Of a stretch of DNA of 40,683 nucleotides, positions 8,275 to 39,627 are shown in pieces. The stretch spans positions 1-40,683 of the IMG/VR virus record IMGVR_UViG_3300036884_000030; one strand, given 5' to 3'. This DNA comes from a virus. How positions within the stretch are numbered: the stretch's first letter is position 1; each line of letters begins with the position of its first letter. The position numbers and the translations under genes were made by a program. Under the pieces are notes generated by a model that did no database searches, was not told the origin of the DNA, and saw nothing but the letters and a program-made list of their open reading frames with translations.

Positions 8275-8694
8275 ATGGTGTCCATTGGAGTCTCAGGCCC
8301 CGGGTGGATTCTCGCGGATTCGTCCATCGGCACCATCGCTGAAGTCAAGGACATCTCAGGTCCCGCCCAAGCCGCGGACAAGGACGAGATCACCAACCAG
8401 TCCAGCCCTTCCGCCTACAAAGAATGGATCGTCACCCTGCTCGACGGCGGGGCGGTCACGTTCCAGTGCGTCTACGTCCCCGACGATGCGACGCAGGGAA
8501 GCACCACGGGTCTGCTGTCGTTCCTCCAGGCTCGCGGCCTGCGGACTTGGACCCTCACCCCGCCCACGCCCTACGCGGCGAACGTCATCGGGTTTGACGC
8601 CATCGTGACCAAGTGGGATCTGAAGACGCCCGTCGGCAAGCACGCGACGGTTGACGTCGAGCTGTACGTCACCAGCCCGGTCACAGTCGCCTAA
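8275..8694 (+). CDS. Major tail (tube) protein
   Basis: This 139-residue protein has the GAAGGAGAG site upstream and occupies the tail tube position before chaperone and tape measure genes. It shows IAEVKDISGPAQAADKDEIT, then EWIVTLLDGGAVTFQCVY, then a FLQARGLRTWTLT strand and a closing VDVELYVTSPVTVA. The order 'vkdisgP... d eiT... ' and a C-terminal 'velkvtgpv' strand is typical of lambda gpV/TTP-like tube proteins. Many copies should stack as hexamer rings to form the tail tube. Confidence 0.75.
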   Translation: MVSIGVSGPGWILADSSIGTIAEVKDISGPAQAADKDEITNQSSPSAYKEWIVTLLDGGAVTFQCVYVPDDATQGSTTGLLSFLQARGLRTWTLTPPTPYAANVIGFDAIVTKWDLKTPVGKHATVDVELYVTSPVTVA

Positions 8695-8712
8695 CCCCGA
8701 AGGGAGGGCAGT

Positions 8713-8928
8713 ATGCCCCTATTCCCGCGCAACTCGCTCCTCGTCTGGCGGTCAGGAGAGGATGGCCCGGGTGATACGCCCGCCACCATCCTCCCGCCGC
8801 TGATCGAGCGGCTGCGCGCGCTCAACCGGGAGAACCCGGCACGGGAGCTTTCACTGGCGATCACGCGCGCCGAGGAGGCGCTGCATTGGCTACGGGCGCT
8901 AGAAGAGCGCCAGAAAGGGTCAGCATGA
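8713..8928 (+). CDS. Acb2/Tad1 hairpin-like small protein (candidate anti-CBASS)
   Basis: This 71-residue protein has an AGGGAGG ribosome site at about 8701-8707. Two helices are predicted: ILPPLIERLRALNRENP (residues about 27-43) and RELSLAITRAEEALHWLRAL (44-63). The second resembles the SRE(K)SLALTxLEEAxxWA signature of small phage proteins annotated as Acb2/Tad1 hairpin domain. Acb2 binds cyclic di- and trinucleotides made by CBASS and so blocks that defence. The position between tail tube and tail assembly chaperone is not required for tail building. This call rests on one short motif, so a divergent structural or chaperone role is possible. Confidence 0.45.
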   Translation: MPLFPRNSLLVWRSGEDGPGDTPATILPPLIERLRALNRENPARELSLAITRAEEALHWLRALEERQKGSA

Positions 8929-9398
8929 CAACCAAGGCTCTTCAGGTATCTCAGGATCACATGGCGTCTCGGCGCCTCAGTCGCGAGGACATCCTCAATA
9001 ATCAGGATCAGGAGACTGAGGACGTACTCGTTCCACAGTGGGAGGGCTACGTCACCATCCGCTCCCTGACCGGAACGGAGCGCGACAAGTACGAGGCGTC
9101 GCTCGTCAGTTACCAGCGTGATGCCAAGGGCCAGCCGCAGGTCAAGGCGATCGAGCTGGACAACCTCCGCGCTCGCCTGATCTCGCTCGTGGCGATCGAT
9201 GAGAAAGGCGCCCGCCTCTTCACGGCCAATGACGTGCTGGTGCTCGGCGAGAAGAACGCCAGTGCGCTCGACCTGCTCTTCACGGCTGCGCAGCGGCTCT
9301 CCAACCTGACGCCTCCCGCCATCGAGGCAGCGAAGGAAGCACTGGGAAACGCCCTGAGCGGCGAGCCTGGTTCCGACTCGCCGGGCACCTTGGGATGA
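8925..9398 (+). CDS. Tail assembly chaperone, G-like, with -1 frameshift signal
   Basis: This 157-residue protein starts at ATG 8925, overlapping the previous stop; the frame is open upstream to 8886 but that part lies in the previous gene. It is charged and helical, with LVPQWEGYVTIRSLTGTERD in the middle and LFTAAQRLSNLTPPAIEAAK near the end, typical of siphophage chaperones between tube and tape measure genes. A GGGAAAC slippery heptamer at 9344-9350 is in the right register (G GGA AAC). Slipping there gives a 222-residue fusion with the following ORF, as in lambda G-GT. The chaperone would hold the tape measure protein while the tail tube forms. Confidence 0.75.
   Translation: MTTKALQVSQDHMASRRLSREDILNNQDQETEDVLVPQWEGYVTIRSLTGTERDKYEASLVSYQRDAKGQPQVKAIELDNLRARLISLVAIDEKGARLFTANDVLVLGEKNASALDLLFTAAQRLSNLTPPAIEAAKEALGNALSGEPGSDSPGTLG
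9344..9350 (+). promoter_or_regulatory. Programmed -1 ribosomal frameshift site
   Basis: The heptamer GGGAAAC is read in the zero frame as CTG GGA AAC. It fits X XXY YYZ exactly and differs from the lambda G-T site (GGGAAAG) only in the last base. In the -1 frame, codons from 9350 onward are open to the stop at 9590-9592. It joins residues 1-142 of the G-like protein to 80 residues of the T-like frame. Confidence 0.75.
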
Positions 9399-9592
9399 GC
9401 GTCCGGCGCTGCCAGCAGGAAGTGAGCTCAGCCGAGTTCGGCGAATGGCTCGCGCTCTGGCAGCTTGAGACCGAGGGCACTGGCGAAGGTGAGCCGTCCG
9501 AGGACCAGCTCAGCGCCAAGATCGGCGCGTGGGGGGCGAGCATGAGCGGCCAGGCTCAGCGCGGCGTAACCACGCTGGAGCGGGTGAAGTAG
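9395..9592 (+). CDS. Tail assembly chaperone T-like extension (read by -1 frameshift from 9350)
   Basis: The open frame runs from 9350 to the stop at 9592; an ATG at 9395 overlaps the G-like stop and could also start a 65-residue protein. It contains VSSAEFGEWLALWQLE, which matches the DUF4035-like motif 'Ss.ef.eW.ay..le' of tail chaperone T domains, followed by an acidic segment and a helical end. The main product is probably the G-T fusion made at the slippery site. The T part binds tail tube subunits in lambda. Confidence 0.75.
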   Translation: MSVRRCQQEVSSAEFGEWLALWQLETEGTGEGEPSEDQLSAKIGAWGASMSGQAQRGVTTLERVK

Positions 9593-36773: not shown

Positions 36774-36895
36774 ACGAACGCATCCTCCCGGCCCTGAGTG
36801 CGAGTGAGGGGCCGGAGCAGGATCGGTACTCGCCCGAGACGGTCGGCAGGCGCGAAGCTGGCGCCTCCGACGTCTTCCTGCGCGGTGCGCGATGA
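36770..36895 (+). CDS. Tiny hypothetical protein
   Basis: This 41-residue ORF overlaps both neighbours by ATGA. It is charged and Ser/Gly-rich, MNERILPALSASEGPEQD and RREAGASDVFLRGAR. Function unknown. Confidence 0.5.
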   Translation: MNERILPALSASEGPEQDRYSPETVGRREAGASDVFLRGAR

Positions 36896-39627
36896 GCGTC
36901 ATCCTCGGTCCCGACGGCCGCCCGCTGCCTTCCATGCTTCCGGTACCGCTTTCGAAGGCGGGGATTGACTCCGCGCTCGCGACGGGCTCCCTGCCCGCCG
37001 GTGCCGTGGCGCAGAGCGACCTGTCCGGGCTGGCCCGCGCGCTCGGCGACGGGCTCTCCGTCACGAACTCGCTCGGCCCCGGCATCCCGATGGGACCGGC
37101 CCACCAGGAGGAGGGCCACCCGCGCTGGTGGGACTACATCCCCGGCCAGAACCTCACGATCAGCCCGCGCTACGGGGAGCAGTACAGCTTCGACGCGTTG
37201 TACGCCCTCGCTAACACGTGGGACGTGGCCGGCATCGCGATAGAGAAGCGCAAGGACGAGTTCCTCAAGCTCGAGCCGATGATCCGCCCGCGGCCGGTGC
37301 CGGGCCAGACGCAGAAGCAAGCGCGCTGCCGGCAGGACGAGCTGCGCGACCAGACCGCGGACGCCACGGGCTTCCTCGAGACGCCGGACCAGCAGAACAC
37401 GTACCCGAGCTGGCTCGGACGCTACCTCGACGACCTGTTCAAAGGCGACTGCGCCACGTGGTACTTGCGCGCCAACATGAGCTCCGGGCTGGCGGCGGTG
37501 GAGGTTCCGGACGGGACCACGATCAAGCCGATCATTGATCTCTGGGGCCGCATCGCGCAGGTCCCGCCGGGGACCCCGCGCCACGTCCACGAGTGGACCC
37601 ACGGCGAGACGGTGGGCTACCAGTCCGCCGGCGCGGGGATCGGGATGGCGTGTTCCGTCTGCGGCGCGGCGCCTGGCTACGCCCAGGTGGTCAAGGGCAT
37701 GGTTTGGGGCTGGTACGGCTCCGACGAGATCGTCTACCAGCCGCGCTGGCTTCGCGGCAAGGGACCGTTCGGCCACCCGCCCGCCGAGGGGATCATCCTC
37801 TCGATCAACCGCGCTCTCCGGCGCCAGAGTCTCGACCTCGCGTGGTACACGGAGGGCACGCTGCCGGCCGCGTTCATGCGCATCCCCGAGACGTGGACGA
37901 TCGAGCAGGCCAAGGAGTTCATGGCGGTCCTCGACCAGCTCTATGCCGGCAACGATGCGCTGCGCTCCCGGATCATTCCGATCCCCGGCGGTCCCAACTC
38001 CGGGATCGACCGGGTGATGCCGGAGCCCAAGGGCGACATGGAGGAGTACCTGCTCCACGTCGGCTGCGCCGCCTACGCGGTCAGCCCGATGGAGATCGGC
38101 TTCATTCGGAGCTCCGGCGGCGCGGGGCTCGGCGGCAAGGGCATCGCCGAGGAGCAGAAGGACACCGGGCGGCTACGCCAGATCAGCCTCGCGGCCCACG
38201 TCCGGCGCGCCTACAACCGCATTCTCGCCAGGTACTGGACGCCCGATCTCGTCCTGTTCTTCCCGAGCTTGGAGGAGCGCAAGGACCAGCTTGATGAGGC
38301 CAAGACGCTCCACGAGTACTGGTCGATGGGTGCCACGACCTCGGACTGGATCGCGGAGAACGTCCTCCAGCAGGACCCGCCCGGCCTCGGAGCCATCATC
38401 CTCACGGGTCAGGGCATGGTCGTCCCCGTGGCGCAGATCACGGCTGGCGGTCCGCCACCGGAGACGCCCACGCCGCCGCCCACCCCAACCTCGGAGCCCG
38501 GCGTCAACACGGTGGCGCCGCTCGCCAAGGCACTCGGCGGGAAGCGCGTCGAGTACACCGGCGATCTCGCGCAGGTCGTCCACCGCTACCTCCTGCGGAG
38601 CTATCCCGCGGCCGACGTGGCATGGGTGCTCGACCCGGCGATCGACTGGGAGTACGACCCGGGCGTGAAGCTCGACAAGATCAACATGGCCCGCCGTCCG
38701 GGTGGCCGGAACGAGGCCAAGGTCAACGCCATCGCGGACTCCGTGGGCGCCGGCGCGTCCGTTGACTTCATCGTGCTCGTGGAGTTCGTCACGCCGAACC
38801 CGAACGGGCTGGACGTGGCTGACGGCTACCACCGCACGCTCGGGGTCCAGCACGCCGGCAAGGATGCCGTCCCCGCGATGGTCGGTCGGAACGTCCCAGA
38901 CAGGTACGAGCCGCTCGTCACCGGGCGGATGCAGGCGCAGTCGGCGTCAAGGGTCACGAAGGGCAATGGCTCCCCAGCCATTGGCTATCGGGGAGCCGCG
39001 CCCTTAGATGCGGGCGCTCTTTCGCCTACTGGCCCGCAAGGGGCCTCATTCGGCGGTGGCCTTCAGACCACTGACCTGAGTATAGACCTCCGCAAGTGGC
39101 GCCAGAAGGCGATCGGGGCGCTGAAGCGCGGCGAGAGCGCGGCGGTGGCGTTCGACTCCGCGGCGATCCCCGAACCGCATCGCGAGTTGATCGCCAAGGG
39201 GCTTCAGACAGCGGCCTCGGTTGAGGACGTGTGGGCGCTCTTCGGGGATGCCCCGCGGGAGGCGCAGCGCCCGGAGCTTGGCCCCAAGGCGCTCTCGGCC
39301 GCCTATGCGGTCCAAGCGGAGGAGGAGCAGGTGCAGGCGGATCGGATTGCGAAGATGGCAGCCGAGCAGGCCGAGCAGCACGGACGCGACATGGCATCCG
39401 TGGTTGCGCTGGTCAAGGCGACGGTGGAGCGGCCGATCGTCGTCAACGTCGCACCGCCACCGCCGGCTGTCGTCAACGTCGCACCTCCCGTCGTGAACGT
39501 CCCGCGCCAGGAGGCGCCGGTCGTCCACGTTGCCGCGCCCATCGTCAAGGTCGAAGCGCCCAAGGCGACCACGAAGACGGTGGAGCGCGACTCCGAGGGT
39601 CGCATCGTGCGGGTGACCGAGTCGTGA
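36892..39627 (+). CDS. Portal protein fused to a ParB-like domain
   Basis: This 911-residue protein starts at ATG 36892. The portal part is residues 1 to about 520: WWDYIPGQNLTISPRYGEQY, then WDVAGIAIEKRKDEFLKL, then WLGRYLDDLFKGDCATW and DEAKTLHEYWSMG. A Pro-rich linker (PPPETPTPPPTP) follows. Residues about 550-690 resemble a ParB/Srx-like fold: DLAQVVHRYLLRSYPAADV, then VADGYHRTLGVQHAGK. The C-terminus ends VERDSEGRIVRVTES, seen in other phage portals. Portals form the 12-subunit ring for DNA entry. At 911 residues it is about twice the usual size. Confidence 0.8.
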   Translation: MSVILGPDGRPLPSMLPVPLSKAGIDSALATGSLPAGAVAQSDLSGLARALGDGLSVTNSLGPGIPMGPAHQEEGHPRWWDYIPGQNLTISPRYGEQYSFDALYALANTWDVAGIAIEKRKDEFLKLEPMIRPRPVPGQTQKQARCRQDELRDQTADATGFLETPDQQNTYPSWLGRYLDDLFKGDCATWYLRANMSSGLAAVEVPDGTTIKPIIDLWGRIAQVPPGTPRHVHEWTHGETVGYQSAGAGIGMACSVCGAAPGYAQVVKGMVWGWYGSDEIVYQPRWLRGKGPFGHPPAEGIILSINRALRRQSLDLAWYTEGTLPAAFMRIPETWTIEQAKEFMAVLDQLYAGNDALRSRIIPIPGGPNSGIDRVMPEPKGDMEEYLLHVGCAAYAVSPMEIGFIRSSGGAGLGGKGIAEEQKDTGRLRQISLAAHVRRAYNRILARYWTPDLVLFFPSLEERKDQLDEAKTLHEYWSMGATTSDWIAENVLQQDPPGLGAIILTGQGMVVPVAQITAGGPPPETPTPPPTPTSEPGVNTVAPLAKALGGKRVEYTGDLAQVVHRYLLRSYPAADVAWVLDPAIDWEYDPGVKLDKINMARRPGGRNEAKVNAIADSVGAGASVDFIVLVEFVTPNPNGLDVADGYHRTLGVQHAGKDAVPAMVGRNVPDRYEPLVTGRMQAQSASRVTKGNGSPAIGYRGAAPLDAGALSPTGPQGASFGGGLQTTDLSIDLRKWRQKAIGALKRGESAAVAFDSAAIPEPHRELIAKGLQTAASVEDVWALFGDAPREAQRPELGPKALSAAYAVQAEEEQVQADRIAKMAAEQAEQHGRDMASVVALVKATVERPIVVNVAPPPPAVVNVAPPVVNVPRQEAPVVHVAAPIVKVEAPKATTKTVERDSEGRIVRVTES
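38968..39020 (+). repeat. Nested hairpins inside the portal gene
   Basis: GGCTCCCC (38968-38975) pairs with GGGGAGCC (38990-38997), with an inner AGCC/GGCT pair in the loop. A second stem, GCGCCC with GGGCGC, follows almost at once near 38998-39018. Dense structure in a coding region is unusual. It lies between the ParB-like domain and the C-terminal region. Confidence 0.6.

Follow-up and report, generated by a model that had tools for sequence, protein, structure and literature searches.

Between the tail tube and tail chaperone genes of this viral DNA lies a small gene, here called X, and the question it raises is whether a phage nucleotide sponge is encoded within a tail operon. A previous reading of the sequence (the sequence-only reading) had taken the product for an Acb2/Tad1 hairpin protein that acts as Acb2 does, sponging cyclic nucleotides and blocking CBASS. 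The present analysis, in which the window is the entire stretch of 40,683 nucleotides, retains the hairpin and points to a cut-down variant of Tad1, a known kind of sponge, rather than to Acb2.

Gene X and its setting in the tail operon

Gene X is an ATG-to-TGA open reading frame (ORF) of 71 amino acids on the plus strand (8713-8928), with the product MPLFPRNSLLVWRSGEDGPGDTPATILPPLIERLRALNRENPARELSLAITRAEEALHWLRALEERQKGSA. The features of the locus are as follows.

8275..8694, plus strand: tail tube (major tail) protein, 5' neighbor of X (phrog_158, E 0.002; PF16461, Phage_TTP_12, E 0.01; synteny)
8700..8708, plus strand: Shine-Dalgarno-like AAGGGAGGG, 5' of the gene X ATG (sequence)
8713..8928, plus strand: gene X, predicted shortened Tad1-like hairpin protein of 71 aa (ORF, Pfam, PHROG, orthologs, dN/dS)
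8737..8751, plus strand: codons 9-13 (LLVWR), placed by profile-profile alignment on the final Tad1 beta strand (V-x-F/W-Q); low-confidence coil in AlphaFold2
8752..8778, plus strand: codons 14-22, loop, including the greater part of the GDTP motif (residues 20-23; family alignment)
8779..8832, plus strand: predicted hairpin helix 1, residues 23-40 (AlphaFold2)
8842..8922, plus strand: predicted hairpin helix 2, residues 44-70, ARExSLAIT.AEEAxHWLxAL (AlphaFold2; Pfam match to residues 34-60)
8925..8928, plus strand: ATGA in which the gene X stop overlaps the start of the tail chaperone gene (sequence)
8925..9398, plus strand: tail assembly chaperone, 3' neighbor of X (phrog_344, E 1.3e-22)

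The placement of X between these two tail genes, as described by the sequence-only reading, is borne out by synteny in all eight contigs that carry the gene and by the strong chaperone match. For the tail tube protein itself the profile matches are weak and the synteny is firm, with homologs found at the same spot in all relatives. The chaperone gene is followed by a second small ORF and then by the tape measure gene. This second small ORF (9395-9592), which occupies a chaperone position and overlaps the end of the first chaperone ORF with its start, has the highest dN/dS of the genes compared (0.36-0.80). Elsewhere in the window, a 911-aa ORF soon after the large terminase gene (36892-39627) has no Pfam match.

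X is a real gene on which purifying selection acts. Values of dN/dS between the three closest copies are 0.21-0.26, within the range of, or below, those of the adjoining tail genes, and the ribosome site ascribed to X by the sequence-only reading is indeed a good one. The ATGA overlap makes translational coupling of X to the tail chaperone likely, and gene order suggests that X would be expressed late, together with the tail genes. No promoter-like site was found between 7700 and 9700, a result of little weight. Isolated phages with related chaperones infect Streptomyces, Rhodococcus and Thermobifida, which hints weakly at an actinobacterial host. Searches with PADLOC and NCBIfam returned no match for X. 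A longer protein with an overlooked N-terminal sheet was considered and rejected: an upstream stop leaves 77 codons at most, since the frame opens only at 8695.

Relationship to the C-terminal half of Tad1

The best Pfam family for X is PF24729 (Acb2_Tad1_hairpin), matched over residues 34-60 with an E-value of 3.2e-5, but at 24.5 bits, which is below the curated cut-off of 27 bits; the expected membership of the Acb2/Tad1 hairpin family is thus upheld as to best family and falls short as to score. PF24729 is also the top Pfam match for every one of the eight X proteins (17.3-26.7 bits). Among PHROGs, the best match of X is phrog_2428 (E 4e-4), the group to which the validated Tad1 of SBSphiJ7 belongs (8e-47), whereas T4 Vs.4 (Acb2) matches phrog_717, for which X gives no match. 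When 177,635 PDB sequences were searched with a profile built from the X proteins, chains of Tad1 alone were retrieved, with E-values of 0.002-0.06 (four members) or 0.01-0.02 (eight members).

Direct comparison of profiles gives the same result. Aligned by hhalign with a profile of seven Tad1 proteins, X reaches a probability of 96% and a score of 51.2, compared with a maximum of 19.8 among 100 column shuffles, and the alignment, which spans residues 9-63 of X, takes in the last strand (V-x-F/W-Q) and the hairpin of Tad1. The AlphaFold2 model contains two helices (residues 23-40 and 44-70) with a pLDDT of about 94, the second of which is the helix RELSLAITRAEEALHWLRAL singled out by the sequence-only reading; the N-terminal third is of low confidence and no sheet is modeled. 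In Foldseek searches of solved structures the top rank goes to Tad1, with an E-value (about 0.2) that by itself is weak for a helical hairpin, and two of the best three viral models are named as Acb2/Tad1 hairpin proteins, again with weak E-values. Homology over the two-helix hairpin is therefore present, given scores far above those of the shuffles and the confident hairpin model, and the combined Pfam, PHROG, PDB profile, HMM-HMM, AlphaFold2 and Foldseek results relate X to the C-terminal half of Tad1. Chance resemblance to the hairpin family is ruled out by the eight orthologs, the shuffles and the searches of solved structures.

The identification as Acb2 fares less well. X shares with Acb2 (T4 Vs.4, phrog_717) the PF24729 domain and a small helical build, so that a genuine Acb2, blocking CBASS as a hexamer that holds cyclic dinucleotides at three sites and trinucleotides at two, might be envisaged; however, the hhalign score against five Acb2 proteins is 17.8, barely beyond the shuffled maximum of 15.9. 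The short N-terminal helix of Acb2, with its motif, is likewise absent from both the sequence and the AlphaFold2 model of X, in which the two-helix hairpin named by the sequence-only reading is predicted. The N-terminal Acb2 helix helps to shape the 3'3'-cGAMP pocket (PMC10419184). A true Acb2 is accordingly regarded as very unlikely.

Parts of Tad1 kept and missing in X

Compared with full-length Tad1 (Thoeris anti-defense 1; 114-142 aa, comprising sheet and hairpin; SBSphiJ7, and the solved cbTad1 and cmTad1), X is a modest structure of 71 aa. The last beta strand and the two-helix hairpin are common to both, as are a glycine in the strand-helix loop and the signature (R)E..xAIT..EEALxWL. 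The N-terminal antiparallel sheet of Tad1 (beta1-beta4) is missing from X, in which only the last strand aligns. An Arg located a few residues beyond the helix 2 Trp-Leu (R127 of SBSphiJ7), which we take to be a gcADPR contact, is invariant in seven Tad1 proteins and is replaced by Leu in all eight X proteins. Also absent is the C-terminal tail of Tad1 (R.VEGT), which forms part of the gcADPR/dinucleotide pocket (PMC12043709). Conversely, the GDTP motif, kept in seven of the eight members, is X's own, and the location of X within a tail operon is another departure from Tad1.

A natural intermediate is provided by the Brochothrix phages BtpYZU04 and ADU4, which encode a 79-aa short Tad1 (contig L116, 383-622; 47% identity to validated Tad1) that is shortened at the front in the way X is. 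This protein consists of the last strand, hairpin and tail, and thus illustrates that a shortened form of Tad1 occurs in nature; unlike X, it keeps both the Tad1 Arg and the C-terminal tail, and in BtpYZU04 its gene adjoins that of the endolysin rather than lying in a tail operon. A search of one literature collection for shortened Tad1 or hairpin-only proteins found none.

These differences bear on the ligands, which for Tad1 comprise gcADPR and both cyclic di- and trinucleotides. With the first strands and tail of Tad1 missing, the Arg changed to Leu and the N-terminal helix of Acb2 absent, the cyclic dinucleotide and gcADPR pockets are probably altered or lost: a gcADPR/dinucleotide site in X is doubtful, and a trinucleotide site possible. 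Because some of the parts that serve Tad1 in ligand binding are among those that X lacks, ligand binding and CBASS inhibition cannot be read from homology. X may nonetheless have anti-CBASS activity, which is conceivable in that CBASS signals are also bound by Tad1 (PMC12043709).

Inheritance of X and contents of the slot

Orthologs of X (50-87% identity) are encoded by seven other viral contigs (L001, L002, L007, L011, L021, L022 and L096). In a tree of the chaperone, a single group (SH-aLRT 91) unites seven of the carriers, with L096, the eighth, placed apart, for a total of two changes, on a tree of few columns and many open forks. This grouping indicates mostly vertical inheritance. No bacterial or prophage carrier was found in a profile search of genome contigs, made with a three-sequence alignment and no positive control, and none was found in 395 and 301 genomes around one Streptomyces and one Anaerolineae genome, respectively, likewise without a positive control.

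In most relatives of the tail module X is absent and the tail tube gene is followed directly by the chaperone gene, usually after a gap of 13-60 bp; these include the isolated Streptomyces phages Dubu and phiSASD1, and the contigs counted for this junction include near-duplicates, with a weak tail tube call in a few cases. X is therefore dispensable for building such tails. Elsewhere among the relatives the slot is occupied by unrelated genes. Together with the grouping on the chaperone tree, these slot contents make X look like cargo that one lineage acquired early and has retained since. The occupants include a CxxCxxCC protein of metal-chelating type (L008, 3616-3966), a 104-aa protein without an assigned role (L102, 3678-3992) and, in Rhodococcus phages, a 167-aa protein likewise without one (L106, 1365-1868).

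The constant position, the predominantly vertical inheritance, a dN/dS resembling that of the neighbors and the loss of the invariant Arg and tail would all suit a hairpin derived from a Tad1-like sponge that has forfeited nucleotide binding and now serves in tail morphogenesis, for instance by acting as a small helical chaperone or by binding either the tail tube protein or the tail assembly chaperone. Close relatives of the module that lack X presumably still make tails, however, unrelated genes fill the same slot in other phages, and one carrier lies elsewhere on the chaperone tree; such domestication is judged the chief rival of a sponge, though rather unlikely. A slot that accepts varied cargo, and a conserved W..GDTP motif without a counterpart of known function, might instead suggest another host-takeover role, for example the binding of a host protein or nucleotide sensing, in which the hairpin is kept merely for oligomerization. 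Against this, the hairpin-family members that have been tested are nucleotide sponges (PMC12043709), and we consider it improbable.

Proposed function

The reading we favor, at about even probability, is that X is a shortened Tad1-like sponge, made late as cargo from the tail tube-chaperone slot and altered in its ligand range. Built from only the final strand of Tad1 and its two-helix hairpin, with neither the first beta strands nor the C-terminal tail, X would most likely oligomerize through the hairpin, as Tad1 and Acb2 do into hexamers, and the oligomer would most likely trap a nucleotide alarm signal of the host. It is this trapping that would probably make X a counter-defense sponge of changed ligand range. 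The cyclic trinucleotide site at the trimer ends, common to Tad1 and Acb2, is the likeliest to be retained, and translational coupling would ensure that X is made together with the tail proteins. In favor of a sponge are the PF24729 assignment, the PDB matches to Tad1 alone, the hhalign and Foldseek matches to Tad1, the natural bridge offered by Brochothrix and the tails that are built without X. Against it are a fixed place in eight contigs and a tail-gene-like conservation, both unusual for a counter-defense gene, as well as the Arg-to-Leu replacement, the missing pocket tail and the low-confidence N-terminal third.

More broadly, and tentatively, the locus may represent a nucleotide-sponge fold that was trimmed and fixed in a tail operon, either as a tail-assembly factor or as a counter-defense tied to tail production. 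If X is a sponge, it would reveal how little of Tad1 suffices for binding an alarm nucleotide; if it is domesticated, a Tad1-type sponge can be converted into a structural helper. In either case, the tail tube-chaperone junction is a place in which to seek overlooked counter-defense genes that score just below database cut-offs. Structural labels are also found on Tad1 relatives in other phages: orf71 of Lactococcus phage 1706 (L114, 2381-2734), labeled a structural protein, is a Tad1 homolog, and the Bacillus phages P59 and CM1 have Tad1-like proteins that likewise carry the annotation putative structural protein.
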